Source of the DNA: Candidatus Saganbacteria bacterium
GTDB taxonomy: Bacteria > Margulisbacteria > WOR-1 > O2-12-FULL-45-9 > XYB2-FULL-48-7
Direction of reading: 5' to 3'
Length of the DNA: 10,085 bases
Assembly (NCBI GenBank): GCA_020051815.1
Contig: JAGVQF010000180.1
Coordinates: 1 to 10,085, forward strand
In this document: one piece after another, positions 1-10,085 of the stretch
Position numbering within the stretch: position 1 is the first letter of the stretch
Layout of the letters: each line of letters starts with the position of its first letter
Notes under the pieces: generated by a model
Told to the model about the DNA's origin: nothing
Database searches by the model: none
What the model saw: the letters and a program-made list of their open reading frames with translations, nothing else
Position numbers and translations under genes: made by a program

Positions 1-1293
1 AATAAATTCGACGCGATAGTGGTCGGTGCCGGTCCGGCGGGAACGTCGGCCGCGCTGGTCATGGCGCAGAGCGGCCTCAACGTGGCGCTGGTCGAGCGGG
101 GCGACTTTCCCGGCTCAAAGAATGTCATGGGCGGCCAGATCTACAGCAAGAGCTTGAACGAGATCGTCCCCGAATTCTGGAAAGAGGCGCCGCTCGAGCG
201 CATTGTGGCCGAAAAGCGCTTCTGGTTCCTGTCAAAAGATTCCAAGGTCTCGATCTCGCACAAGACGCCCAAGTTCGCCCAGCCGCCTTACAATAGCTGT
301 ACCGTCCTGCGGGCCAAGTTCGACAAGTGGTTCGTCGGCAAGGCGATCGAAAAGGGAGCGTTCTATATCCCCGAGACACTGGTCGAAGATATTATCCGAG
401 ATCAAAAAGGCCGGATCGTCGGCGTTAAAACGGGCAGGGCTGACGGCGAGCTCTATGCCCCGGTCGTTCTGGCCGCTGACGGCGTCAATTCACTTTTATC
501 AAAAGCCGCCGGTTTCCATGCCGAGCTTTCTCCCCAGAATGTGGCGCTGGCTGTCAAAGAAATTATCGCTATGCCGAAGAATCGCATCCAGGACCTCTTT
601 GACCTGGAAGGTGACCAGGGCTTGACGATCGAGATCGCCGGCGAGATCACCAAGGGGATGGTTGGTGTCGGCTTTATCTATACGAACAAGACGACCATCT
701 CGGTCGGGGTCGGCTGTATCCTCTCCGACTGGGTCAATTACAAGATGAGCCCCTACGACCTGATCGAAGAGATGAAGAACCATCCGGTCGTAAAACCTTT
801 GCTTGAGGGCGGCCAGATCCGCGAATACCTGGCGCATCTTATTCCCGAGGGCGGCTACAACGCTATGCCGCCGCTCGTGAGCGATGGTTTTCTGGTCGCC
901 GGCGACGCCGGCATGATGGTCAATGGTCTGCATCAGGAAGGCTCGAACCTGGCCATGACCTCGGGCAAGATGGCGGCCGAGACGATCATCGAGGCGCACA
1001 AAAAAGGCGATTTTTCGGCCCGTTTCCTTTCATTATATAAGAGGAAGCTGGATGAGAGCTACGTCATCAAGGACCTCAAAAAATACCGTAACAGCTACTC
1101 GTATCTGGAGGGCAATCGGCAGCTATTGACCACCTATCCGGAGATTATTAACGAAGCGGCCACCGAGTTTTTGTCAGTCGACGGCGTGCCAAAATGGGAG
1201 AAGCAAAAGAAGATATTCCGCTCGACTTTAAAAAAGCGCAGCCTTTGGGGCCTGATCAAAGACGCGTTCTCGGCCTGGCGAGCGTTCGGATAG
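1..1293 (+). CDS. fixC: FixC, electron transfer flavoprotein:quinone oxidoreductase (5' partial)
   Basis: FAD-containing membrane-associated oxidoreductase of the FixABCX complex, which takes electrons from the FixAB flavoprotein and passes them towards quinone and, through FixX, ferredoxin. The reading frame is open from base 1, so the true start lies just left of the window; only a few residues should be missing because the GAGPAG dinucleotide-binding motif is already at visible residues 9-14. Further FAD-site motifs are ERGDFPGSKN at about residue 34 and the C-terminal GDAGMMVNGLHQEGSNLAM block around residue 301. About 430 residues are visible, the normal FixC length. The protein lacks the C-terminal iron-sulfur domain of mitochondrial ETF-QO, which is supplied here by the next gene. 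fixX follows after 9 nt with a GGAG site touching the fixC stop, so the two are co-transcribed. fixA and fixB are expected upstream but cannot be seen. A GTG at base 19 is an internal codon, not the start. Confidence 0.95.
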   Translation, partial: NKFDAIVVGAGPAGTSAALVMAQSGLNVALVERGDFPGSKNVMGGQIYSKSLNEIVPEFWKEAPLERIVAEKRFWFLSKDSKVSISHKTPKFAQPPYNSCTVLRAKFDKWFVGKAIEKGAFYIPETLVEDIIRDQKGRIVGVKTGRADGELYAPVVLAADGVNSLLSKAAGFHAELSPQNVALAVKEIIAMPKNRIQDLFDLEGDQGLTIEIAGEITKGMVGVGFIYTNKTTISVGVGCILSDWVNYKMSPYDLIEEMKNHPVVKPLLEGGQIREYLAHLIPEGGYNAMPPLVSDGFLVAGDAGMMVNGLHQEGSNLAMTSGKMAAETIIEAHKKGDFSARFLSLYKRKLDESYVIKDLKKYRNSYSYLEGNRQLLTTYPEIINEAATEFLSVDGVPKWEKQKKIFRSTLKKRSLWGLIKDAFSAWRAFG

Positions 1294-1302
1294 GAGAAAA
1301 AA

Positions 1303-1572
1303 ATGAAACTCGAAGATAAATTATTTCTTGATCGGTATGTCGTCGACAGCATCCCGCATCTTAAGATCAAAGATCCGAATAAATGCGTCATGTGCCAGAA
1401 GAAGCAGTGCCTCTACACCTGCCCGGCGCAGGTCTATAAGCAGGAGGAAGGCAAGATCGTTGTTTCCTACGAGGGTTGTGTCGAGTGCGGCACCTGCCGG
1501 ATCATTTGCAGCGAAAATCTGGAATGGAAATATCCGCGCGGCGGGTTCGGGGTTTCGTACAAGTTTGGCTAA
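1303..1572 (+). CDS. fixX: FixX, ferredoxin-like iron-sulfur protein
   Basis: Small (89 aa) iron-sulfur partner of FixC in the FixABCX electron-transfer complex. Eight cysteines fall in two groups: C28, C31, C36 and C40 followed by Pro, and C59, C62, C65 and C69 in CxxCxxCxxxC spacing. This fits two [4Fe-4S] clusters, as known for the family. The C-terminal YPRGGFGVSYKFG ending is typical of FixX. The ATG is preceded by GGAG at 1293-1296 with a 6-nt spacer, and the gene lies 9 nt after fixC. No clear terminator follows; the next strong signal is a promoter beginning 8 nt after the stop codon, so readthrough from fix into the cytochrome genes is possible. Confidence 0.96.
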   Translation: MKLEDKLFLDRYVVDSIPHLKIKDPNKCVMCQKKQCLYTCPAQVYKQEEGKIVVSYEGCVECGTCRIICSENLEWKYPRGGFGVSYKFG

Positions 1573-1579
1573 ATACGCC

Positions 1580-1608
1580 TTGACAGGCCCAGGTGGTTTT
1601 GTGATAAT
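1580..1608 (+). promoter_or_regulatory. sigma70-type promoter for the cytochrome/porin operon
   Basis: TTGACA at 1580-1585 matches the -35 consensus exactly. After a 17-bp spacer comes GATAAT at 1603-1608, one mismatch from TATAAT and preceded by TGT, giving an extended -10. Transcription would start near 1615, leaving a 5' leader of about 37 nt with GGAGGG at 1640-1645 before the cytochrome start. This is the best promoter-like sequence noticed in the window and separates the cytochrome genes from fixCX. It is a sequence match only. Confidence 0.75.
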
Positions 1609-1651
1609 CTCGCTATCTAAGAATATCGAGTAAAATATCGGAGGGATTTGA

Positions 1652-2725
1652 ATGCGAAAGAACTTAGTCGTTTTATGTCTGATCTTTTCCGGCCTCATGC
1701 TGGTCGGTTTGATCGGCTGTACCACGACGACCACCACCGCCACTGGCAACGGCGTGACGGACCCTTCGCATGCCCCCTCAAATAACGATCTTTCGGCCGC
1801 TTCATATGTCGGCTCTCTCACCTGTAAAGAATGCCATGGCCCTGGCAATGATGATGGCAATGAAGATGTGTATACGCCGTGGAAAAACAGTGCGCACGCC
1901 AGTGTCATCGGCAGCGGCGCCTCCAGCAACCCATCTTCTGGCTGTGGCTTCTGCCATGCAACCGGCTATAAACAGACCGGCGGGTATAGCATAACCAGCA
2001 ACAGCACAACGGAAGCCGGCATGTATACCGTCCAGTGCGAAATGTGCCATGGACCGGGGAGTTTGCATACGCCTGAAGCGGCGGCAAAAAGCGCCACGAT
2101 CAATAAAGTTCCGGATGCAATCGCAACCTGCGGCCGCTGCCACCGCGGCCGGCCGTTTGTTGTTAAAGACGCTAATGGCCGATACGATTCATTGGTCGAT
2201 ATGGATAACAAGACTGCGGTTAATGCCTCGATCGAAGCGGTCCGGGGAACCAGCGGCACTTTGACCCGGCATCCGATCCATTATCGGCCCAATCTGCCGG
2301 TCTTTAAGGGGACAGGCGGCTATGAATACAGCGGCAGTACTTATACAAGTTCATTCCATACGTCCGGTATCTCCAATGCCTGCGTTGTTTGCCATTTGCA
2401 GTTTGGCACAGATAAACACGACCTTGAACCGGATCTGGCCGCTTGCAATTCTTGTCACACCGGGGTCATTACATTTGATGTTGACGGCAAAAACACGGAG
2501 ATATTGGGCTTGCTTCAGACCTTAGGGGCGGAACTCGGCAGTTATGAGGCCGCCGTAACCAGATCGGCCAGAACAGCCGAGTCCTACACCAAAGCGTTAT
2601 GGAATTTTTACCTGATCACCAGAGAAACGGACGCGGGCAAAGCCTGCGCCGGTGTCCATAACTATCGATACGCCAAGCAATTATTGCAGGATGCGATCAA
2701 TAATTTTGACCCGGCCGATCGATAA
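1652..2725 (+). CDS. Hexaheme cytochrome c, c554-type, predicted lipoprotein
   Basis: Exported multiheme c-type cytochrome of 357 aa. The N-terminus has a positively charged start, a hydrophobic stretch and a lipobox (Leu-Ile-Gly-Cys) with lipidation at C23, followed by a Thr-rich linker. Six CxxCH heme sites start at C58, C98, C129, C160, C244 and C265. The order CKECH, then CGFCHATGY, then CEMCHGPGS resembles the cytochrome c554 family (Cytochrome_C554). A C-terminal helical tail of about 75 residues has no heme motif and contains GVHNYRYAKQLL, a pattern also found in NrfA/octaheme-related cytochromes. The start is supported by GGAGGG at 1640-1645. The barrel gene follows after 9 nt. Likely role: surface or outer-membrane electron transfer with the next two genes. 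A soluble-substrate reductase cannot be excluded, though there is no CxxCK active-site heme. Family assignment is secure; the function is inferred. Confidence 0.9.
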   Translation: MRKNLVVLCLIFSGLMLVGLIGCTTTTTTATGNGVTDPSHAPSNNDLSAASYVGSLTCKECHGPGNDDGNEDVYTPWKNSAHASVIGSGASSNPSSGCGFCHATGYKQTGGYSITSNSTTEAGMYTVQCEMCHGPGSLHTPEAAAKSATINKVPDAIATCGRCHRGRPFVVKDANGRYDSLVDMDNKTAVNASIEAVRGTSGTLTRHPIHYRPNLPVFKGTGGYEYSGSTYTSSFHTSGISNACVVCHLQFGTDKHDLEPDLAACNSCHTGVITFDVDGKNTEILGLLQTLGAELGSYEAAVTRSARTAESYTKALWNFYLITRETDAGKACAGVHNYRYAKQLLQDAINNFDPADR

Positions 2726-2734
2726 GGAGGCATC

Positions 2735-3925
2735 ATGAGAATTAAACAGGCTGTTCTTTTATTTATTTTCACGCTTGGGGTGAGTGCTGTCTATGGCCTT
2801 GGCTTTTCAAACAGCAGCGCCACCACGCTGATGCGCCGGACGAGCTACGATATCTTTGGCAGCCAGGGGTCTTATTCGCCGGTTTACGAGCTGGTCCAAT
2901 TTGACTGGCAGGGGAAAGAGGACCTGGGCGGCTCCGTTTATATGCGGGGCCGGACGGGGAATGTTTACTACAGCAATGCCTCGTCGGATCTCTTGGTCTA
3001 TGCCGCTTACGCGGATTGGAAAGCCAACGACAACCTGGTACTGCGCGGCGGCCGGCAGACCATTTACCAGGACATCAGGATCTTCTCTCTCGACGGCTTA
3101 AAAGTCGATATCCCGACGTTCTTCCGTCCCAATGTCGCGGTCTCCGCTTATCTGGGCAAACCGGCCGAGCTCTACGCGACGGATCCGGGGACAAACATGC
3201 TGGGTTTTCGCACCTCGATCGCCGTAAGGGATAACGCCAGCCTCGCTTTCGATTACCAAACGGAGCAGAAGAGCGGGAACGCCTTGACCAGCATCGGCGG
3301 CGTGCGGGGCAGCGCGACGCTCGGACAGGTTGATGTGGCGGCGTTGGCCAATTACGACCTGGCCAGGTCGGTGGTCAAGAACTATAAAGTTGATGCCTCC
3401 TTGCCGGTCAGGAAAGGGCTGGTTTTGCAGGGAAAATATGACGCGCAAACCCCTGATTTTGATCCCCAATCGGTCTATTCGGTTTTTAATTACGCCTACC
3501 AGCAGGTCCAGCATGCCTCGGCCGGCGTCGATTACGGCCTGGACGAAGATACCAACGTCTACGCCTGGCTGGGCACTATTACCCAGGACCAATCAAAAGG
3601 CTTTGACTGGCGCCTTGGCGTCGGCAACAAGGGCGGGCTTTTGGGCTATGATACTTCTTTTGATTATTACAAAACCCAGGGCCTGGACGGCGACCGCGAA
3701 GACCTCTCCTGTTCGGCCTCGAAGAACGTGACCGATAAATTCGTCCTGTCCGGGCGGCTGAACTATGGCGTGGCCGGTGGGGATAAAATGCTGATCGGCG
3801 GCGTGGCGGCGACAGTTAAGCCGAGGGACAACGTTGACCTCTCGATCAACTGGCAATCGGTCATGGGCGGCTTTACCCCTAATTCAAAGCTGATGGCTTC
3901 GGCCAGTATCAATTTAGGTGAATAA
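2735..3925 (+). CDS. Outer-membrane beta-barrel (porin-like) protein between multiheme cytochromes
   Basis: The 396-aa product has a cleavable signal peptide (RIKQAVLLFIFTLGVSAVYG, cleavage probably near residue 22) and then successive stretches with alternating polar and hydrophobic residues, many aromatic, separated by Gly/Asn/Asp turns, as expected for beta-strands of a barrel. A segment with LRGGRQTIYQDIRIFSLDG at about residues 105-123 resembles the GRQ...DG pattern of many bacterial porins. The last residues are Leu-Gly-Glu, not the classic terminal Phe. The gene has a strong SD (AAGGAGG, 2724-2730) overlapping the stop of the upstream cytochrome, and the next cytochrome starts 3 nt after its stop, so all three are one operon. 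By position it is the candidate porin of a trans-outer-membrane conduit. I could not assign it to the MtrB/PioB or OmbB families by eye. Confidence 0.8.
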   Translation: MRIKQAVLLFIFTLGVSAVYGLGFSNSSATTLMRRTSYDIFGSQGSYSPVYELVQFDWQGKEDLGGSVYMRGRTGNVYYSNASSDLLVYAAYADWKANDNLVLRGGRQTIYQDIRIFSLDGLKVDIPTFFRPNVAVSAYLGKPAELYATDPGTNMLGFRTSIAVRDNASLAFDYQTEQKSGNALTSIGGVRGSATLGQVDVAALANYDLARSVVKNYKVDASLPVRKGLVLQGKYDAQTPDFDPQSVYSVFNYAYQQVQHASAGVDYGLDEDTNVYAWLGTITQDQSKGFDWRLGVGNKGGLLGYDTSFDYYKTQGLDGDREDLSCSASKNVTDKFVLSGRLNYGVAGGDKMLIGGVAATVKPRDNVDLSINWQSVMGGFTPNSKLMASASINLGE

Positions 3926-3928
3926 GAA

Positions 3929-4558
3929 ATGAAAAAATATATTTTTGTCTGGCTGGCCCTGATCCTGACGGCGACGGTAGTTTGCGCCGACAAGCCGGAA
4001 TCTCACGATAAAATGTGGCAATATACCCACGGCATGAAAGCCAAGCAGGATATCGCCTCCTGCACGGTCTGCCATACTAATGAGAAGACCTGCCTTGACT
4101 GCCATAAAGTGACTTTCGATTCCAAATCTAAACCGCGTTCGCATAATGGCGATTACACGATCGTGCACCGGCTCGATGCCAAGCGCGACGCCTCGGTCTG
4201 CTCGACCTGCCATGAGCGGGGCGGCGATTATTGCAATAAATGCCACCAGTCGTTGAATAAAGCAGTTTCTACCACCAATGCTTCCCCGACCCAGCCGCAA
4301 AGCCACGACGCGGCCAACTGGCGGACCGCTCTGCACGGCGCTTACGCTAAGCGAAACCTGTCGGCCTGCCAGGCCTGCCATCCTGATCTATATACTGTCA
4401 GTCCCTGCACGCTCTGCCACGGCGGAGCAACTAATATCGCGGGCAGTCCCCATCCGGCGAACTTTAAGGCCAGCCAATTTAAGGACCTGACCGTTTGCTA
4501 CAAATGCCACGGCACGGGGACGTCGGCCGGGCCTTCGGCCGGCCCGCTCACGCTTTGA
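3929..4558 (+). CDS. Heptaheme exported cytochrome c with triplicated diheme module
   Basis: The 209-aa product has a signal peptide with likely cleavage after VCA (residue 20), which would place the protein in the periplasm. Seven CxxCH sites start at C45, C55, C91, C102, C147, C160 and C190. The first six form three tandem diheme modules (about residues 26-60, 72-107 and 126-165). Each begins with a His, has a second His about 8-10 residues later, then an Ala-Lys-x-(Asp/Asn) turn and a close CxxCH pair; the seventh heme stands alone. The repeats look like paired-CxxCH (cytochrome c3/c7-like) units. The start has AGGTGA at 3915-3920, 8 nt upstream, and follows the barrel gene by 3 nt. It probably shuttles electrons to the barrel/lipoprotein cytochrome conduit. 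The C-terminal SAGPSAGP tail is low complexity and encoded by a GC-rich inverted repeat. Confidence 0.92.
   Translation: MKKYIFVWLALILTATVVCADKPESHDKMWQYTHGMKAKQDIASCTVCHTNEKTCLDCHKVTFDSKSKPRSHNGDYTIVHRLDAKRDASVCSTCHERGGDYCNKCHQSLNKAVSTTNASPTQPQSHDAANWRTALHGAYAKRNLSACQACHPDLYTVSPCTLCHGGATNIAGSPHPANFKASQFKDLTVCYKCHGTGTSAGPSAGPLTL
4525..4544. repeat. GC-rich imperfect inverted repeat at the end of the heptaheme cytochrome gene
   Basis: Two GGCC-rich arms of 9 and 8 nt flank a TTC loop and can pair over 8 GC pairs with one bulged G. The element lies inside the last codons of the cytochrome gene, about 11 nt before its stop, and is not followed by a T-run. It could slow or partly end transcription, but it does not meet the usual criteria for an intrinsic terminator. 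The octamer TCGGCCGG also occurs twice here as a direct repeat (4523-4530 and 4535-4542). Confidence 0.4.
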
Positions 4559-4582
4559 TTCCATTCTTAAATTTGATATAAT
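4555..4582 (+). promoter_or_regulatory. Extended -10 promoter for the molybdenum cofactor operon
   Basis: TATAAT at 4577-4582 is a perfect -10 and is preceded by TGA, giving an extended -10. A weak -35, TTGATT at 4555-4560, lies 16 bp upstream and overlaps the stop codon of the heptaheme cytochrome. The start of transcription would be near 4589, giving a leader of about 95 nt before mobA. It is a sequence match only. Confidence 0.65.
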
Positions 4583-4589
4583 AGAGTTC

Positions 4590-4683
4590 TCCGATCCGCC
4601 CGGCCTAGATCTTTTTAGATGGCTTAGCGGACGTTAGGGTGTAGTTCGAAAGGATTGCGCCTCCCATTTTGGAAAGGAGAAAT
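4590..4683 (+). promoter_or_regulatory. Structured 5' leader of the moco operon, possible riboswitch or RBS-masking element
   Basis: The leader can form a hairpin with stacked helices TCCGC/GCGGA (4595-4599 with 4627-4631), GCC/GGC (4603-4605 with 4621-4623) and ATCT/AGAT (4609-4612 with 4617-4620), a TTTT loop and asymmetric internal loops. Further down, CTCC at 4661-4664 is complementary to the GGAG (4676-4679) of the mobA ribosome binding site, so a second hairpin could hide it. Moco/Tuco RNA riboswitches are known upstream of molybdopterin synthesis genes, which makes this a reasonable candidate. I could not match it to the Moco RNA consensus by eye, so the riboswitch label is an inference. 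Confidence 0.4.
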
Positions 4684-5253
4684 ATGAACGGCATCATTCT
4701 CGCCGGCGGGAAAAGTTCGCGCTTTGGCGAAAACAAAGCATTGGCTAAGATCGAAGATCAGCCGCTGATCGAGAGAACGGCTTTCCTCCTTGGACAGTTT
4801 TTCCCCAAGGTCTACATCATCGCCAACACCCCTGACGATTACCAATATTTGGGCCTTGAGATCAGGGCCGATATTATTAAAGACCGCGGGCCTCTCGGGG
4901 GCATTCACGCCGGCCTGACGGCTTCCACCGATTTTTCTAATTTTGTCACCGCCTGTGACATGCCTTTTCTCAATCAGGATCTCGTCCGCTATCTTTCAGT
5001 GAACTCGGCCGGTTTTGACCTGGTCGTGCCGCGCTTTTTCGGCCGGCTCCAGCCGCTGTGCGCCGTTTACTCAAAGGCCTGCCTTCCCCAAATCGAGCGG
5101 CAGTTGGCTGAAGGGGATTTGAGATTGACCGGCCTGATCGAAGCGGTGCATTCAAAGGTGATCGAAGAAGATGAGATCACGGCGATCGACCATACAGGGC
5201 GATCTTTTGCCAACATCAATACCAGGGAAGATTATGCGGCCATTAGCCGATAA
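4684..5253 (+). CDS. mobA: MobA, molybdenum cofactor guanylyltransferase
   Basis: Cytoplasmic enzyme that attaches GMP from GTP to molybdenum-molybdopterin, giving (bis-)MGD for enzymes of the DMSO reductase superfamily. The 189-aa product has the nucleotide-binding LAGGKSSRFGENKAL at residues 6-20, RGPLGGIHAGL around residue 70 and the metal-binding ACDMPFL with D92. Length and motifs are standard for MobA. I chose the ATG at 4684 because it follows AAAGGAG (4673-4679) and gives the usual MNGIILAGG start; an in-frame TTG at 4669 would place the ribosome binding site inside the gene. It is the first gene of the moco operon and its 3' end overlaps moaA by 20 nt. Confidence 0.94.
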   Translation: MNGIILAGGKSSRFGENKALAKIEDQPLIERTAFLLGQFFPKVYIIANTPDDYQYLGLEIRADIIKDRGPLGGIHAGLTASTDFSNFVTACDMPFLNQDLVRYLSVNSAGFDLVVPRFFGRLQPLCAVYSKACLPQIERQLAEGDLRLTGLIEAVHSKVIEEDEITAIDHTGRSFANINTREDYAAISR

Positions 5254-6052
5254 GTTCGGACGAGCCATTAATTATTTACGTATTTCGGTCACCGACCGCT
5301 GCAACCTGCGCTGCACCTACTGCATGCCGGCAGAAGGGATCGCCCTGAAAACGCACGCTGAAATTCTCTCCTATGAAGAGATCGTCGAGATCTGCCAAAC
5401 GGCGGTCGGCCTCGGCATCAACAAGATCAGGCTGACCGGCGGCGAGCCGCTGGTGCGCCGCGATATCTGCGAGCTGGTCTCTGGTATTGCAAAAATACCC
5501 GGACTGCAAGACCTGGCTTTGACGACCAACGGGGTCCATCTGAAAGCTCTGGCTTTTAATCTGAAAAAAGCGGGTTTGAGGCGCGTAAATATCAGCCTGG
5601 ATTCCCTTGACCCGTTAAAATATCAGCGGATCACAAGGGGCGGCAATTTGTCCGACGTTTTGCAGGGGATCGAAGCGGCGCTGGCGGCGGGGCTTGCCCC
5701 GGTTAAGATCAACATTGTCCTGCAATCGGGTTTTAATGACGATGAGGTTGAGGCATTCATGAGTTATGCCGCTCGCCTGGGGATCAAACTCCAGTTCATC
5801 CGGCAGATGTCGTTGTCACAGGGGAAGCCGGCAGTCCCGGCGGATAATGTCTGCACCAGGCCGCCCGACTGCCGCCAGTGCAACCGTATTCGTCTGACGG
5901 CCGACGGCAAATTCAAACCCTGCCTTTTTTCCGACCTCGAGATCGATGCCCGAACCGTGGGCGCCGAACGGGCCCTGCGGCTGGCGGTCGAAGGCAAGCC
6001 GGAGGCGGGGCAGGCGTGTTATAAAAGGGAAATGGTGCAAATTGGCGGTTAA
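5234..6052 (+). CDS. moaA: MoaA, GTP 3',8-cyclase (compact form)
   Basis: Radical SAM enzyme that, with MoaC, converts GTP to cyclic pyranopterin monophosphate. The SAM cluster motif CxxxCxxC is C23, C27 and C30 within ISVTDRCNLRCTYC. LTGGEPLVR follows at about residues 69-77. The C-terminal cluster motif CxxC-x13-C is C213, C216 and C230 within CRQCNRIRLTADGKFKPC, which also carries the Arg residues that contact GTP in the family. The protein ends in the conserved Gly-Gly tail. At 272 aa it is about 50 residues shorter than typical MoaA (about 320-340); the missing part is the linker between the last barrel strand (QFIRQM) and the C-terminal cluster, and no frame disruption is visible there. 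The ATG at 5234 gives the normal DKFGR start; a longer upstream extension would lie inside mobA. Confidence 0.93.
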   Translation: MRPLADKFGRAINYLRISVTDRCNLRCTYCMPAEGIALKTHAEILSYEEIVEICQTAVGLGINKIRLTGGEPLVRRDICELVSGIAKIPGLQDLALTTNGVHLKALAFNLKKAGLRRVNISLDSLDPLKYQRITRGGNLSDVLQGIEAALAAGLAPVKINIVLQSGFNDDEVEAFMSYAARLGIKLQFIRQMSLSQGKPAVPADNVCTRPPDCRQCNRIRLTADGKFKPCLFSDLEIDARTVGAERALRLAVEGKPEAGQACYKREMVQIGG

Positions 6053-6500
6053 AAAATTTAGTCATGTCGATAGGTCCGGTAAAGCAAAGATGGTGGATGT
6101 GGGGGATAAGCCGGTGGTTAAGAGAGTTGCAGTTGCCAGAGGTTTTATTTATTTAGCGAAAGAAACAATTAAACTGATCAAGGCCAATCAATTAAAAAAA
6201 GGGGATGTGTTAGCGGTCGCCAGGATCGCCGGGATCCAGGCGGCCAAAAAGACGAGCGAATTGATCCCGCTCTGCCATCCCCTGGCCATTGATGTGATCG
6301 ATCTCGATCTGCAATATCAACAAAAAGGGCTGGCGATCGAAGCGACCGTAAGATCGACCGGCAAAACCGGGGTAGAGATGGAAGCGCTGACCGCGGTTTC
6401 GGTTGCGGCGCTCACTATCTATGACATGTGCAAAGCGGTCGATAAAAAGATGCGCATCGGGGAGATCTATTTATGGCAAAAATCAAAGCGGTCTGTTTGA
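6042..6500 (+). CDS. moaC: MoaC, cyclic pyranopterin monophosphate synthase
   Basis: Second enzyme of cofactor synthesis, converting the 3',8-cyclo-GTP made by MoaA into cPMP. The 152-aa product has KTSELIPLCHPL at residues 70-81 and GVEMEALTAVSVAALTIYDM at 110-129, followed by CKAVDK. D128 and K131 match the known catalytic positions of the family, even in numbering. I chose TTG at 6042 as start because it leaves the FSHVDRSGKAKMVDV leader expected for MoaC; the next in-frame ATG (6090) would remove this conserved part. It overlaps moaA by 11 nt; a weak GGGA at 6027-6030 lies 11 nt upstream, suggesting translational coupling. The C-terminus ends in WQKSKRSV and lacks the usual Gly-Gly-Lys-Ser-Gly tail. 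Its end overlaps the MOSC gene by 28 nt. Confidence 0.93.
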   Translation: MAVKKFSHVDRSGKAKMVDVGDKPVVKRVAVARGFIYLAKETIKLIKANQLKKGDVLAVARIAGIQAAKKTSELIPLCHPLAIDVIDLDLQYQQKGLAIEATVRSTGKTGVEMEALTAVSVAALTIYDMCKAVDKKMRIGEIYLWQKSKRSV

Positions 6501-6898
6501 GCCGGGACAAAGGCCGGAAGGCCGAGGTGGGAGAAGCCGAGCTCGTGGCCGGGTCAGGGGCGTTGGGCGATTTTCACGCCGGTTCGAAGAGGCAGGTGAG
6601 CCTGCTGGCCGAAGAGAGCATAAACATTATGAGAGAAAAGGGGCTGCGGTTGAAACCGGGCGATTTTGGCGAGAACATCGTGACTGAAGGGATCGACCTG
6701 AAAGCTTTGGGCCTCGGGACAAAATTATCGCTCGGCCGGGAAATTGAACTGGAGATAACCGAGATCGGCAAAGTTTGCCCCGAGCGGTGCGCCATATATT
6801 ACCAGGCCGGCGACTGCATCATGCCGCGGGAAGGCGTTTTTGGCAAGGTCTTAAGAGGAGGGCTGATCAAAATTGGAGACGAGATCAGGCAGATTTAA
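6473..6898 (+). CDS. MOSC domain protein in the molybdenum cofactor operon
   Basis: The 141-aa product is a stand-alone MOSC domain, the fold found at the C-terminus of Moco sulfurases and in YiiM/YcbX-like proteins that bind molybdenum cofactor. Visible family features are RQVSLLAEES at about residues 40-49, PGDFGENIVTEGIDL at 62-76 and cysteines C102, C106 and C115 in VCPERC and GDCIMPREGVFG; C115 would be the candidate functional Cys. GGGGAG at about 6458-6463 supports the ATG. The gene overlaps moaC by 28 nt and mogA by 26 nt. MOSC domains are often next to or fused with MogA, which suggests a joint role in handling or modifying the adenylylated or finished cofactor. The exact reaction is not known for this subgroup. 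Confidence 0.88.
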   Translation: MAKIKAVCLSRDKGRKAEVGEAELVAGSGALGDFHAGSKRQVSLLAEESINIMREKGLRLKPGDFGENIVTEGIDLKALGLGTKLSLGREIELEITEIGKVCPERCAIYYQAGDCIMPREGVFGKVLRGGLIKIGDEIRQI

Positions 6899-7367
6899 GG
6901 CGGCGGTCTTAACGACCAGCGACAAGGGCTCAAAAGGCGAGCGGGAGGACAAGTCGGGCAAGATCATCATTGATCTGCTCAAGACCGCTCCTTTTGAGAT
7001 CGTCCACTACGAGATGATCCCGGATGACCTTGAGACGATCAAGGAGCGTTTGATCAAGTTCTGCGACGAATTGAAGGTTGACCTGGTTTTGACCACGGGC
7101 GGCACCGGGTTCTCCGGGCGCGATAATACTCCCGAGGCCACCAGAGCAGTGATCGAAAAAGAAGTTCCGGGGATCCCCGAGGCCATGCGTTTTGAGGGGT
7201 GGAAAAAGACGAAGCGGGCCATGCTCTCGCGCGGGATCGCGGGTCTGCGCGGGCAGACCCTGATCATTAATTTGCCGGGCAGTTCAAGGGGGGCGCGGGA
7301 GTCGCTGGAAGCGATAATCGATGAACTGCCGCACGGGCTGGAAATGTTCGAAGGACGCGAGCATTGA
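6873..7367 (+). CDS. mogA: MogA/MoaB, molybdopterin adenylyltransferase
   Basis: Activates molybdopterin by adenylylation before metal insertion by MoeA. The 164-aa product has VLTTSDKGSKGEREDKSG at residues 12-29, TTGGTGFSGRDNTPEAT starting at 74, with D84 in the position of the catalytic Asp, and RGIAGLRGQTLIINLPGSS near residue 115. The only usable start is TTG at 6873, since a stop codon in this frame lies just upstream (6864-6866). AGGAGG at 6856-6861 is 11 nt before it, rather far. It overlaps the MOSC gene by 26 nt and shares TGATG with the next gene. MogA and MoaB cannot be told apart reliably by eye. Confidence 0.92.
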   Translation: METRSGRFKAAVLTTSDKGSKGEREDKSGKIIIDLLKTAPFEIVHYEMIPDDLETIKERLIKFCDELKVDLVLTTGGTGFSGRDNTPEATRAVIEKEVPGIPEAMRFEGWKKTKRAMLSRGIAGLRGQTLIINLPGSSRGARESLEAIIDELPHGLEMFEGREH

Positions 7368-7888
7368 TGATCTTATTTGACCTGTTCTTTGCTTTTTTCA
7401 AGATCGGCCTGTTCGCGGTCGGCGGCGCCTATTCTTTCCTGCCGCTGATCGAAAAAGAAGTGGTCGAGAATTACCGGTGGCTGACCAAACCGGAATTCCT
7501 GGATGTCCTGGGAGCGATCCAGATCTTTCCCGGCGCCATTTCCATTAAATACGCCACATATACGGGCTATAAATTGGCTGGTATCCCCGGGGCGATCGCG
7601 GCCAATCTCGGCAATTTTGTCGCGCCGGCCGCCCTGATTATGGCCGCCGCGGCCCTCTACATTAAATATAAGGAATTTCCGCCGCTTAAAAACTCTTTTG
7701 CCATGATACAGTTAGTTGTCTTTGCCATGATACTGGCCGTCGCTTTCCGGGCCGTCGAAATGAAGGCGCTGCTGCAATTCCGGGGATTATTGGTGGCGGC
7801 GATCGCGTTCGTCTTGTTCGCTTTCACAAAAGTTCACCCGGCATTTATAATCGTTGGCGCCGGGATACTGGGGGCTTTGGGACTGTAA
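7367..7888 (+). CDS. Short ChrA-family (CHR) membrane transporter, possible oxyanion transporter
   Basis: The 173-aa product is a half-size member of the chromate transporter (CHR) family. It is hydrophobic throughout, with about five or six membrane segments. The family signature is clear near the N-terminus: FFKIGLFAVGGAYSFLPLIE, then a Trp-Leu-Thr, EFLDVLGAIQIFPGAISIKY and TGYKLAGIPGAIAANLG. I chose the ATG at 7367, which overlaps the mogA stop as TGATG; the in-frame TTG at 7364 is less likely. AAGGA at 7351-7355 lies upstream. Half-size CHR proteins usually occur as adjacent pairs; only one is present here, inserted between mogA and moeA. In this context the substrate may be molybdate, tungstate or another sulfate-like anion. 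That is inference, since the named family activity is chromate efflux. Confidence 0.88.
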   Translation: MILFDLFFAFFKIGLFAVGGAYSFLPLIEKEVVENYRWLTKPEFLDVLGAIQIFPGAISIKYATYTGYKLAGIPGAIAANLGNFVAPAALIMAAAALYIKYKEFPPLKNSFAMIQLVVFAMILAVAFRAVEMKALLQFRGLLVAAIAFVLFAFTKVHPAFIIVGAGILGALGL

Positions 7889-7889
7889 T

Positions 7890-9098
7890 ATGCTCTCGAT
7901 CGATAAAGCCAGACAGGTCATATTAAACAACGTTAAAGAGACGCCGGCCGTGACGGTTGATCTCATGTCAGCCGCGGGAGCGTGTTTGGCCAAAGATATT
8001 TATTCCCCCCTGCCGATCCCGCTCTTTGACAACTCCGCTATGGACGGCTACGCGGTCAGGGCGGCCGACCTCCGGGGGGCTTCGCAAAAAAAATCGATCC
8101 GCCTTAAGATAATCGAAGAGATCCCGGCCGGACATATCCCGCGGCAACGGATAAAGAGAGGCGAGGCCGCTTTGATCATGACGGGAGCGATGTTCCCGGC
8201 CGGCGCGGATACCGTGGTTGTGGTTGAAGCCACAAAGCGGGAAGGCAAGTGGGTCCAGGTCTTTTGTGAAACGGGCAAGGGAGAAAATATCCGGAAAAAA
8301 GGCGAAGTTATACGGCGGGGAGAGCGGCTGCTTAAGGCCTGCACATTGATCCGCCCGCCGGAAGCCGCTCTGCTGGCGACGGTCAACAAAAAGATGGTTT
8401 CAGTTTACCGCCGGCCGAGGGTGGCACTCATTTCGACCGGCAGTGAAGTCGTGCCGCTGGGCCGGCGGCTCGGGCCGGGCCAAATCGTCGACAGTAACCG
8501 GTATGGGGTGATGCTGCAGTTAAAAGCTTGCGGGGCGGACGTGATCGATCTGGGGCTCGTGAGGGATGACCGAGAGGCGATAAAGAGAAAACTGATCAAA
8601 GGGATTAGGCGGGCCGATGTGGTCATTACGATTGGTGGCGTTTCGGTCGGGCAATGGGATTTTGTTAAAGAGGCCGTTGCAGGGCTGGGCCGGATTATTT
8701 TCTGGAAGGTCAAGATGAAGCCAGGCGGGCCGCTGACCTTTGGCAAGATCAGGGATAAATTGTATTTTGGCCTGCCGGGTAACCCGGTCTCGACGCTGGT
8801 GGTTTTCGAACAAATGGTCCGCCCGGCGCTCTTAAAGATGAGCGGCCGCCGGGATTACTTAAAACCGGTTTTTACCGCCGTGTTGGAGAGAGATTATCAC
8901 GGCCAGGCGGGGAAAGTCCGGTTGGAGAGAATATTTCTTAGATATAAAAACGGCAAATATTTTGCCCGGCCGATGCGCTCGCTCGGCTCGGGCGATATGC
9001 GCTCTCTCACGGCGGCCAACGGGCTGATGATCGTGCCGGCCAATATTTCGCGCCTGCGTAAGGGGCAGCTCGTGTCGGCGCAGTTTATTGGCATATAA
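7890..9098 (+). CDS. moeA: MoeA, molybdopterin molybdenumtransferase
   Basis: Inserts molybdate into adenylylated molybdopterin made by MogA. The 402-aa product has the usual full length. Motifs in order are PLFDNSAMDGYAV at residues 44-56, GEAALIMTGAMFPAGADTVV at 91-110, ALISTGSEV at 179-187, TIGGVSVGQWDF at 247-258, MKPGGPLTFG at 276-285 and GLPGNPVSTLVVFEQMVRPA starting at 294. D257 lies in the metal/cofactor site of the third domain. The ATG at 7890 starts 1 nt after the ChrA stop, with no strong SD, so translation is probably coupled; an upstream in-frame start at 7854 would lie within the transporter gene. It is the last gene of the operon and is followed by an oppositely oriented gene. 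Confidence 0.95.
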   Translation: MLSIDKARQVILNNVKETPAVTVDLMSAAGACLAKDIYSPLPIPLFDNSAMDGYAVRAADLRGASQKKSIRLKIIEEIPAGHIPRQRIKRGEAALIMTGAMFPAGADTVVVVEATKREGKWVQVFCETGKGENIRKKGEVIRRGERLLKACTLIRPPEAALLATVNKKMVSVYRRPRVALISTGSEVVPLGRRLGPGQIVDSNRYGVMLQLKACGADVIDLGLVRDDREAIKRKLIKGIRRADVVITIGGVSVGQWDFVKEAVAGLGRIIFWKVKMKPGGPLTFGKIRDKLYFGLPGNPVSTLVVFEQMVRPALLKMSGRRDYLKPVFTAVLERDYHGQAGKVRLERIFLRYKNGKYFARPMRSLGSGDMRSLTAANGLMIVPANISRLRKGQLVSAQFIGI

Positions 9099-9203: not shown

Positions 9204-10085
9204 TTACCTTAAAAGTCTTAGGCCATTAATGATGACCAGTAATCCTCCTATCTCATTGATCAAAAGGCCGGGCACAAGCCCTATCCGGCCGAGAAGCGCC
9301 ATGGGAACGAGAAAGCCAATTATCAAAAGTGAAATAAATATATTCCCCCTGATGTTGAGTACAGTTCTTCTGCCCAGGTCTATGACGTAAGGTATTTTCA
9401 AAAGATTATCCGACATAAGGATGATATCCCCTGTCTCAATGGCGACATCGGTCCCGGCGGCGCCCATCGCAATACCGAGGTCTGATGCGACCATGGCGGG
9501 CGCGTCATTCACGCCATCTCCTACCATAGCGGTTATTCCGTGGCGGCCTTTAATATTTTTGATCGCGCCAACCTTTTCTTCAGGCAGAAGCTGAGCCATG
9601 TATTCGTCAATGCCTGCTTCAGCCGCCATAACTTTTGCCACCTGCATATTGTCGCCCGTCAGCATAACCGTTGTTCTTATTCCGGCCTGTTTCAGTTTCC
9701 TCAAGGCATCCCGGGCCTCCGGCCTCAACTCATCTCTGGCGGCAATTATGCCCATTATCCGGCTTTTGCCGGTTAGGGCAATGACCGTCTTGCCTTCTTC
9801 TTCAAGCGCTTTGATCCTGTTTTCAGCCTCAGCGGAAAGAATGCCGAGCCGGCCGCACATGGTTTTGCTCCCAACGCGATAAATTTCATTGTTTATCTTA
9901 GCGGTAGCTCCTTGTCCCGGGATCGCCGCAAAATCTTCCAACTCTTGAATAGGGATATTTCTTTCTTTTGCTTTGTTTAAGACTGCCTCCGCCAGGATAT
10001 GTTCGGAGCGGCTCTCTATGGACGCGGCCATGGACAGAAGCTCGTTTTCTTTTAACTCTCCCAGTGGGATCACATCCGTCACCAC
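9204..10085 (-). CDS. Heavy-metal translocating P1B-type ATPase, C-terminal half (partial)
   Basis: C-terminal 293 residues of a membrane pump that moves metal ions using ATP. The frame runs off the right edge, so the first membrane segments, any metal-binding domain and the DKTGT phosphorylation site are not seen; the GTG at the edge is not a start. Visible parts are the nucleotide-binding domain with SRSEHILAEA at about residues 25-34, GQGATAKINNEIYRVGS, the P-domain TGDN and MVGDGVNDAPAMVASDLGIA, and the last two membrane helices ending in NEIGGLLVIINGLRLLR. The HP-locus Pro is replaced by Ile (SEHI, not SEHP), and the last helix has NEIGG where related pumps have HEGGT or ADMGV, so the metal cannot be assigned. 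It is convergent with moeA and less GC-rich than the genes to its left, suggesting separate origin. Confidence 0.93.
   Translation of the reverse strand: MVTDVIPLGELKENELLSMAASIESRSEHILAEAVLNKAKERNIPIQELEDFAAIPGQGATAKINNEIYRVGSKTMCGRLGILSAEAENRIKALEEEGKTVIALTGKSRIMGIIAARDELRPEARDALRKLKQAGIRTTVMLTGDNMQVAKVMAAEAGIDEYMAQLLPEEKVGAIKNIKGRHGITAMVGDGVNDAPAMVASDLGIAMGAAGTDVAIETGDIILMSDNLLKIPYVIDLGRRTVLNIRGNIFISLLIIGFLVPMALLGRIGLVPGLLINEIGGLLVIINGLRLLR

Follow-up and report, generated by a model that had tools for sequence, protein, structure and literature searches.

The DNA considered here, termed the window, is a stretch of 10,085 nt from a Candidatus Saganbacteria bacterium (genome G000), and its main subject is a group of three genes that probably encodes a conduit carrying electrons outward from the quinone pool. 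The three open reading frames (ORFs) all lie on the forward strand, at positions 1652-2725 (357 aa), 2735-3925 (396 aa) and 3929-4558 (209 aa), with gaps of 9 nt and then 3 nt between them, in keeping with an earlier, preliminary description of this sequence. The one strong promoter that had been assigned to them is likewise present, as a sigma-70-type element (TTGACA-17-GATAAT; 1580-1608, forward strand) that agrees with the consensus at 11 of 12 positions, has a TG ahead of its -10 element and is the best among six sites found, where shuffled sequences averaged 2.9. In order, the trio encodes a hexaheme c-type lipoprotein, a putative outer-membrane β-barrel and an exported heptaheme cytochrome. 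The six and seven CxxCH motifs first reported for the two cytochromes were recovered; when the residues of each protein were shuffled 10,000 times, such motifs averaged 0.02 for the first protein and 0.07 for the second and never exceeded two.

The product of the first gene (1652-2725) is the proposed outer-face cytochrome. Its assignment as a lipoprotein is borne out by a lipobox near the N-terminus (...LVGLIGC-TTT, read by eye, with the cysteine at residue 23); that cysteine and all six CxxCH motifs are kept in seven of seven aligned sequences, the query included. Seven additional histidines are invariant across the same set, and with these seven spare histidines for six hemes, none of the hemes has to serve as an open active site. 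Among Pfam models, the protein exceeds the cut-offs of Cytochrome_C554 (PF13435; 36.3 bits against 20.8), which agrees with the c554-type outer cytochrome originally suggested, and of Cytochrome_C7 (PF14522). The MtrC/MtrF domain model PF22113 was narrowly missed (29.0 bits against 30), and the score for the OmcA/MtrC model TIGR03507 was 22.7 bits against a cut-off of 209.3. A protein search listed 50 relatives at E<=1e-3 besides the query's own, six of which span 97-100 % of the query at 42-79 % identity. When a profile built from the seven aligned sequences was compared with the Protein Data Bank (PDB), four sequences matched at E<=0.01, namely 6i5b (1.2e-22), cytochrome c554 (4.3e-9), multiheme cytochrome cf (1.2e-7) and MccA (1.8e-6). 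The first of these, titled 'Uncharacterized protein' in its PDB file, aligns in four segments, the C-terminal tail among them, and is taken to be OcwA of Thermincola potens, since the string 6I5B occurs once in the OcwA report (PMC6703420). There, OcwA is presented as a cell-surface terminal reductase with a fold like those of cytochromes from the nitrogen and sulfur cycles, and its structure is set beside those of c554 and MccA, both of which are among the profile matches (PMC6703420). Based on its Cytochrome_C554 domain and shared C-terminal tail, the hexaheme protein is classed as a c554/OcwA-type multiheme cytochrome.

The product of the second gene (2735-3925) starts with an ordinary signal peptide, read by eye, as does that of the third, and so both leader sequences noted earlier stand. 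Pfam includes an MtrB_PioB model. As anticipated for a barrel that does not obviously match MtrB, no Pfam or NCBIfam match to the protein was found at E<=1, and its homologues P0002-P0004 likewise gave no Pfam match at E<=1; by these comparisons the barrel belongs to no known family. A protein search that scored the 7,999 candidates with the most shared words returned three homologues, at 71, 67 and 51 % identity. Among PDB sequences, one antibody chain was the only match, at E=0.11 for the single sequence and E=0.94 for the profile. The AlphaFold2 (AF2) model, taken as evidence for a barrel only and not for its lumen or exact strand number, has a mean predicted local distance difference test (pLDDT) score of 48.9, with residues 1-163 below 50 and the ten-residue blocks of 191-340 at 59-83, save for 39-51 at 241-260. 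At this low confidence, 15 strands are modelled in residues 153-394, and the 14 Foldseek matches at E<=0.001, all with low TM-scores (0.32-0.49), comprise PelBC and 13 chains of porin, OmpT/OmpU or VDAC type. The model supports a barrel fold in residues 153-394 and, with about five further strands read by eye in residues 49-141, the total is estimated at roughly 20. The 16 or more strands looked for earlier are likely rather than firmly shown. The motif TPxFDPQSVxxVF, which is conserved in all four barrel sequences, sits in the longest modelled loop of that half, and that it docks a cytochrome is a guess. Cys326 (window 3710-3712), a single cysteine placed in a modelled β strand, is also invariant in all four sequences.

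The third gene (3929-4558) encodes the proposed wire through the barrel. Five homologues share 65-80 % identity with its product, and across the six sequences 14 of 14 histidines are invariant, seven in heme motifs and seven elsewhere; one homologue, P0057, is short of one CxxCH. The seven spare histidines are just enough for bis-histidine ligation of each heme, a pattern that favours a role in conducting electrons over one in catalysis. An AF2 model of this protein (pLDDT 37.6) was left unused. A profile of the heptaheme family (A3) aligned by hhalign with 11-heme proteins from two other bacteria, with probabilities of 97.0 % for one in genome G021 and 97.5 % for one in RI_285, and in both the 11-heme gene lies directly after a barrel-like gene (~404 aa in G021, ~464 aa in RI_285). 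In RI_285, the barrel-like gene is preceded by a 9-heme and a 4-heme gene that the hexaheme profile matches at E=3e-15 and 4e-23, such that a similar order of outer-type cytochromes, barrel-like gene and multiheme gene is seen in this one other bacterium. In G021, the next gene after the 11-heme gene encodes a 17-heme protein with a lipobox-like start. Pfam gave nothing for the barrel-like protein of G021 and a sub-cut-off OMP_b-brl match for that of RI_285. The G021 genes belong to a longer series (L089:4426-12572), in which a module of tetraheme, iron-sulfur, NrfD and 11-heme genes is followed by the barrel-like, 11-heme and 17-heme lipoprotein-like genes; this series is a candidate for a larger conduit in the same class.

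Outer-membrane electron conduits are described, in the available portion of PMC6148476, as combining a multiheme periplasmic cytochrome, an integral β protein of the outer membrane and a redox lipoprotein. By gene content, all three occur in this one cluster, in the form of the heptaheme protein, which its signal peptide would direct to the periplasm, the protein with 15 modelled and some 20 estimated strands, and the hexaheme lipoprotein, whose placement on the outer face is presumed. For porin-cytochrome (Pcc) conduits, ranges of 18-22 strands, 5-14 periplasmic hemes and 1-15 outer hemes have been given, and extreme sequence diversity is noted among the outer cytochromes, in the sections available (PMC4245776). 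Judged by plan, the trio is a Pcc-type conduit, and its low heme count is unexceptional within these ranges; its parts are new and its plan is ordinary. The earlier proposal of an analogous porin-cytochrome conduit is thus supported by gene content and plan, and its claim of a smaller heme count is correct in comparison with MtrCAB or OmcB, though not for Pcc systems at large (5-14 and 1-15 hemes; PMC4245776). Like the Geobacter systems (OmbB-OmaB-OmcB, ExtABCD and ExtEFG), the trio clusters a barrel, a periplasmic multiheme protein and a redox lipoprotein, and its heme numbers and estimated strand number lie within the published ranges; however, its gene order opens with the outer cytochrome, its barrel is uncatalogued and its outer cytochrome is c554/OcwA-like. 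The likeness to OmbB, OmaB and OmcB refers to published descriptions and plan, not to sequence homology. With MtrCAB and PioAB, the trio shares the plan of a barrel plus a periplasmic multiheme cytochrome, but MtrB has 28 predicted strands according to the portion of PMC4245776 available, whereas the barrel here has 396 aa and no Pfam match, and the periplasmic cytochrome has seven hemes, not ten. Direct membership in the MtrCAB group was rejected, there being no MtrB/PioB barrel, no decaheme MtrA-type protein and no OmcA/MtrC-family match above cut-off. OcwA is the best solved relative of the hexaheme protein, C-terminal tail included; it differs in having nine hemes and in belonging to a Gram-positive cell, for which no outer-membrane barrel is expected (PMC6703420, in part). 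Neither the trio nor the locus exchange considered below is described in the titles or abstract openings of the top-listed papers on porin-cytochrome systems and candidate phyla, which is no proof of absence. With 13 hemes in all, the trio would be a compact conduit whose barrel family is missed by current models, and comparable systems may, therefore, go unnoticed in further uncultured bacteria.

Upstream of the trio and on the same strand, the window begins with a fixC-like gene (1-1293, its start lost at the contig end) for a flavoprotein of the electron-transfer-flavoprotein:quinone oxidoreductase type. The product scores below the cut-offs of NCBIfam PRK10015 (357 bits against 466) and FixC PRK10157 (345 against 610), and its counterpart in the sister species (genome G001) is 95 % identical. 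A fixX-like ferredoxin gene follows (1303-1572, forward strand); its product is above the cut-off of Pfam Fer4_ETF_QO and below that of NCBIfam FixX (E=6.5e-17, 61.5 bits against 166), and the sister counterpart is 92 % identical. Another contig of G000, C96, carries a partial NrfD gene, a ResB-like gene (named by position), CcsA, a 3-heme cytochrome, what is, judged by its sequence, presumably a FixA-like gene and a FixB-like frame that runs off the contig end. Judging by the comparison with G001, this contig should adjoin the window, with ~140 nt to the window's first base inside fixC. C96 thus holds CcsA-type cytochrome assembly genes, and evidence for an NrfD-type module consists of NrfD in G000 and of iron-sulfur and multiheme partners in G001, where an iron-sulfur, a tetraheme and an 11-heme protein (the last with an NrfH-like start) are encoded beside NrfD.

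To place the locus in its phylum, 74 genomes were sampled, with profile searches in all 74 and single-sequence searches in 57. FixX was found at E<=1e-6 in nine of the 74 (eight of those at E<1e-30) and Cytochrome_C7 (PF14522) in 28. Within the class (G000-G030, 31 genomes), FixX and PF14522 occur in the identical five genomes (Fisher p=5.9e-6, a value that ignores kinship and genome incompleteness), and this co-occurrence suggests a path by which NADH, through electron bifurcation, would supply acceptors outside the cell. In G000 and G021, fixX is followed at once by a candidate conduit gene; in G001, two other genes stand between them, and in G011, G013, G037, G042 and G047 the stretches examined after fixX showed no such candidate. 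The fix-cytochrome link is, therefore, stronger than the link of fix to this one position.

Comparison with G001 sets the trio apart from its surroundings. By blastn, window positions 1-1304, 1299-1570 and 4567-9085 align with the sister genome at 85, 82 and 89 % identity, and the interval between (1571-4566, forward strand), which holds the trio and its promoter, has no alignment except where a 40-base match (1534-1573) extends three bases into it. Misassembly of the window was rejected on the ground that its two flanks match G001 in the same order. The GC content of the cassette is 0.546 and that of the flanks 0.546 and 0.548, so composition gives no sign of foreign origin. In G001, the counterpart interval contains an AAA/DUF4143 gene, a LysR gene and a gene whose 398-aa product has a single CxxCH close to the N-terminus. 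The first of these (DUF4143/AAA_14, L129:17828-19060) follows fixX, and at its far end the 40 bases that match the 3' end of fixX (window 1534-1573) appear again, as though insertion of the gene had brought about a duplication. Homologues of the 398-aa protein occur in G021 (66 % identity, ~80 nt after fixX) and, elsewhere in its genome, in G011 (68 % identity, beside a LysR gene), and G000 has merely a weak C-terminal match. The proteins of G001, G011 and G021 have 397-398 aa, one CxxCH and the motif A-I-[TS]-A-W-[AS]-R-K-Y. Cyc2, according to the portion of PMC8406198 available, has AXPXFAR[Q/K][T/Y] before a single CxxCH, is fused to a porin and has at least 365 aa; the motif found here is a near-match in which P and F are replaced. 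No Pfam match at E<=0.1 and no NCBIfam match at E<=0.01 was obtained for the G001 protein. In size, single N-terminal heme and near-match motif, it resembles Cyc2. The trio differs from such a fused cytochrome-porin in having three proteins instead of one monoheme protein, and no similarity between the two was found, yet the Cyc2-like gene occupies the same chromosomal interval of G001. It is possible, if somewhat doubtful, that the position after fixABCX is an exchange site at which a one-gene Cyc2-like cytochrome-porin and an unrelated three-gene conduit replace each other. If so, a flavin-based electron-bifurcating quinone reductase would be directly coupled to extracellular electron transfer and the conduit types would be interchangeable modules; the sister-species comparison does suggest that a given respiratory locus can use conduits of more than one type.

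In the scheme that we favour, FixABCX would reduce the quinone pool and the NrfD-type module would oxidize it. The barrel would sit in the outer membrane, the heptaheme protein, with bis-histidine ligation of every heme, would act as a wire that threads or docks into it from the periplasmic side, and the hexaheme protein, held by its lipid anchor, would cap the barrel on the outer face, completing the complex and passing electrons to an external acceptor. Outward flow from the quinone pool in this manner would amount to anaerobic respiration. Several results weigh against it. Both AF2 models are poor, and among PDB sequences the heptaheme profile found no MtrA-like chain (12 sequences at E<=1, the best at 0.027). 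The barrel-like proteins of G021 and RI_285 are not significantly like the barrel here (hhalign probabilities of 3.8 and 1.2 %) and are barrels by appearance only, and the G021 barrel-like and 11-heme frames have no signal peptide at their first start codons. A conduit candidate between fixX and the next operon occurs in only three of the eight strong-fixX genomes, one of these being G001 with its two intervening genes.

Distribution adds to that side. The full hexaheme protein was found in one of the 74 genomes (G000), with three weak partial matches elsewhere, the heptaheme type in two of 74 (G000 and G021), and the barrel in one of the 57 genomes in which it was sought, the remaining 17 having been left out; the single-sequence searches gave all three proteins in G000 and the heptaheme protein alone also in G021 (E=3e-7). 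No close hexaheme relative was among the best 80 of 180 loci, a scan that may omit records very near the window's genome (the top-ranked had 31 % identity and the best short segment 44 %). Of those 80, 26 were inspected, and by eye only one (L006) had a barrel-like gene beside multiheme genes. An alternation score tried as a barrel flag failed, as four reference proteins scored 0.13-0.30 and other ORFs up to 0.38; it flagged nothing over the 26 loci, and its silence means little. On the other hand, homologues of all three proteins occur in other public assemblies (ena, lgn, jgi and ncbi), and those of the close relatives are probably metagenomes. For the gene 1 homologue P0010 and the gene 3 homologue P0061 alike, the longest contig is given as 134,315 bases, a shared figure suggesting that genes 1 and 3 stay together, but no barrel homologue reporting that figure was found. 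The conserved synteny expected earlier is, accordingly, a mixed result: 73 of 74 genomes lack the full hexaheme protein and 56 of 57 lack the barrel, while homologues exist in other assemblies and RI_285 has a similar order.

The strongest alternative keeps the conduit and reverses it, with the quinone pool gaining electrons from an outside source, such as Fe(II) or a partner cell, and FixABCX using quinol and ferredoxin to make NADH. Such a direction is favoured by the Cyc2-like gene in the G001 interval and its homologue directly after fixX in G021, since a characterized Cyc2 oxidizes Fe(II) (PMC8406198, in part); but the Cyc2 motif is only nearly matched in these proteins, and OcwA, to which the hexaheme protein is closest among solved structures, is described as a terminal reductase (PMC6703420, in part), and we regard uptake as unlikely. 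Less probable still is that there is no trans-membrane wire, the barrel being a substrate porin and the cytochromes a reductase of a soluble nitrogen or sulfur compound with its electron donor, for while the OcwA fold resembles nitrogen- and sulfur-cycle cytochromes (PMC6703420, in part), the hexaheme profile also matches MccA and the weak barrel model matches mostly ordinary porins and VDAC in Foldseek, the seven invariant spare histidines for six hemes leave no need of an open active-site heme and heptaheme-like 11-heme genes lie directly after barrel-like genes in two other bacteria.

Other multiheme genes lie elsewhere in these genomes. A second cluster occurs in G000, G011 and G021 (L127 on contig C99 of G000, L089:12573-17974 and L133:1-5939), with a 544-545 aa barrel-looking protein (truncated in G000 and without a Pfam match there) and a 4-heme protein, along with an 8- or 11-heme protein in G011 and G021 and, nearby, a 9-heme (G000) or 7-heme (G011) protein; it is possibly a second conduit. 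Additionally, L128:1517-6866 and L130:6004-11266 encode a molybdopterin oxidoreductase together with iron-sulfur, diheme and 325-331 aa proteins. The oxidoreductase is closest to the TtrA (tetrathionate-reductase) model, at 481 bits, far below the cut-off of 1750, and in G001 its gene is preceded by one that is moeA-like. Reading a TGA as selenocysteine in a two-heme protein of G000 contig C78 was rejected, since this codon is a normal stop directly ahead of the following gene.

Downstream of the trio, a molybdenum/tungsten cofactor riboswitch (RF01055; 4577-4695, forward strand; 71 bits against a gathering score of 36) opens the next operon. The first gene of this molybdopterin operon (4684-5253, forward strand), which we take from its sequence alone to be mobA-like, has an 85 % identical protein in G001. 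At the far end of the window, the reverse strand (9204-10085) encodes the C-terminal part of a heavy-metal-translocating P-type ATPase (271 bits against TIGR01525, below the cut-off of 346), which is cut by the contig end.

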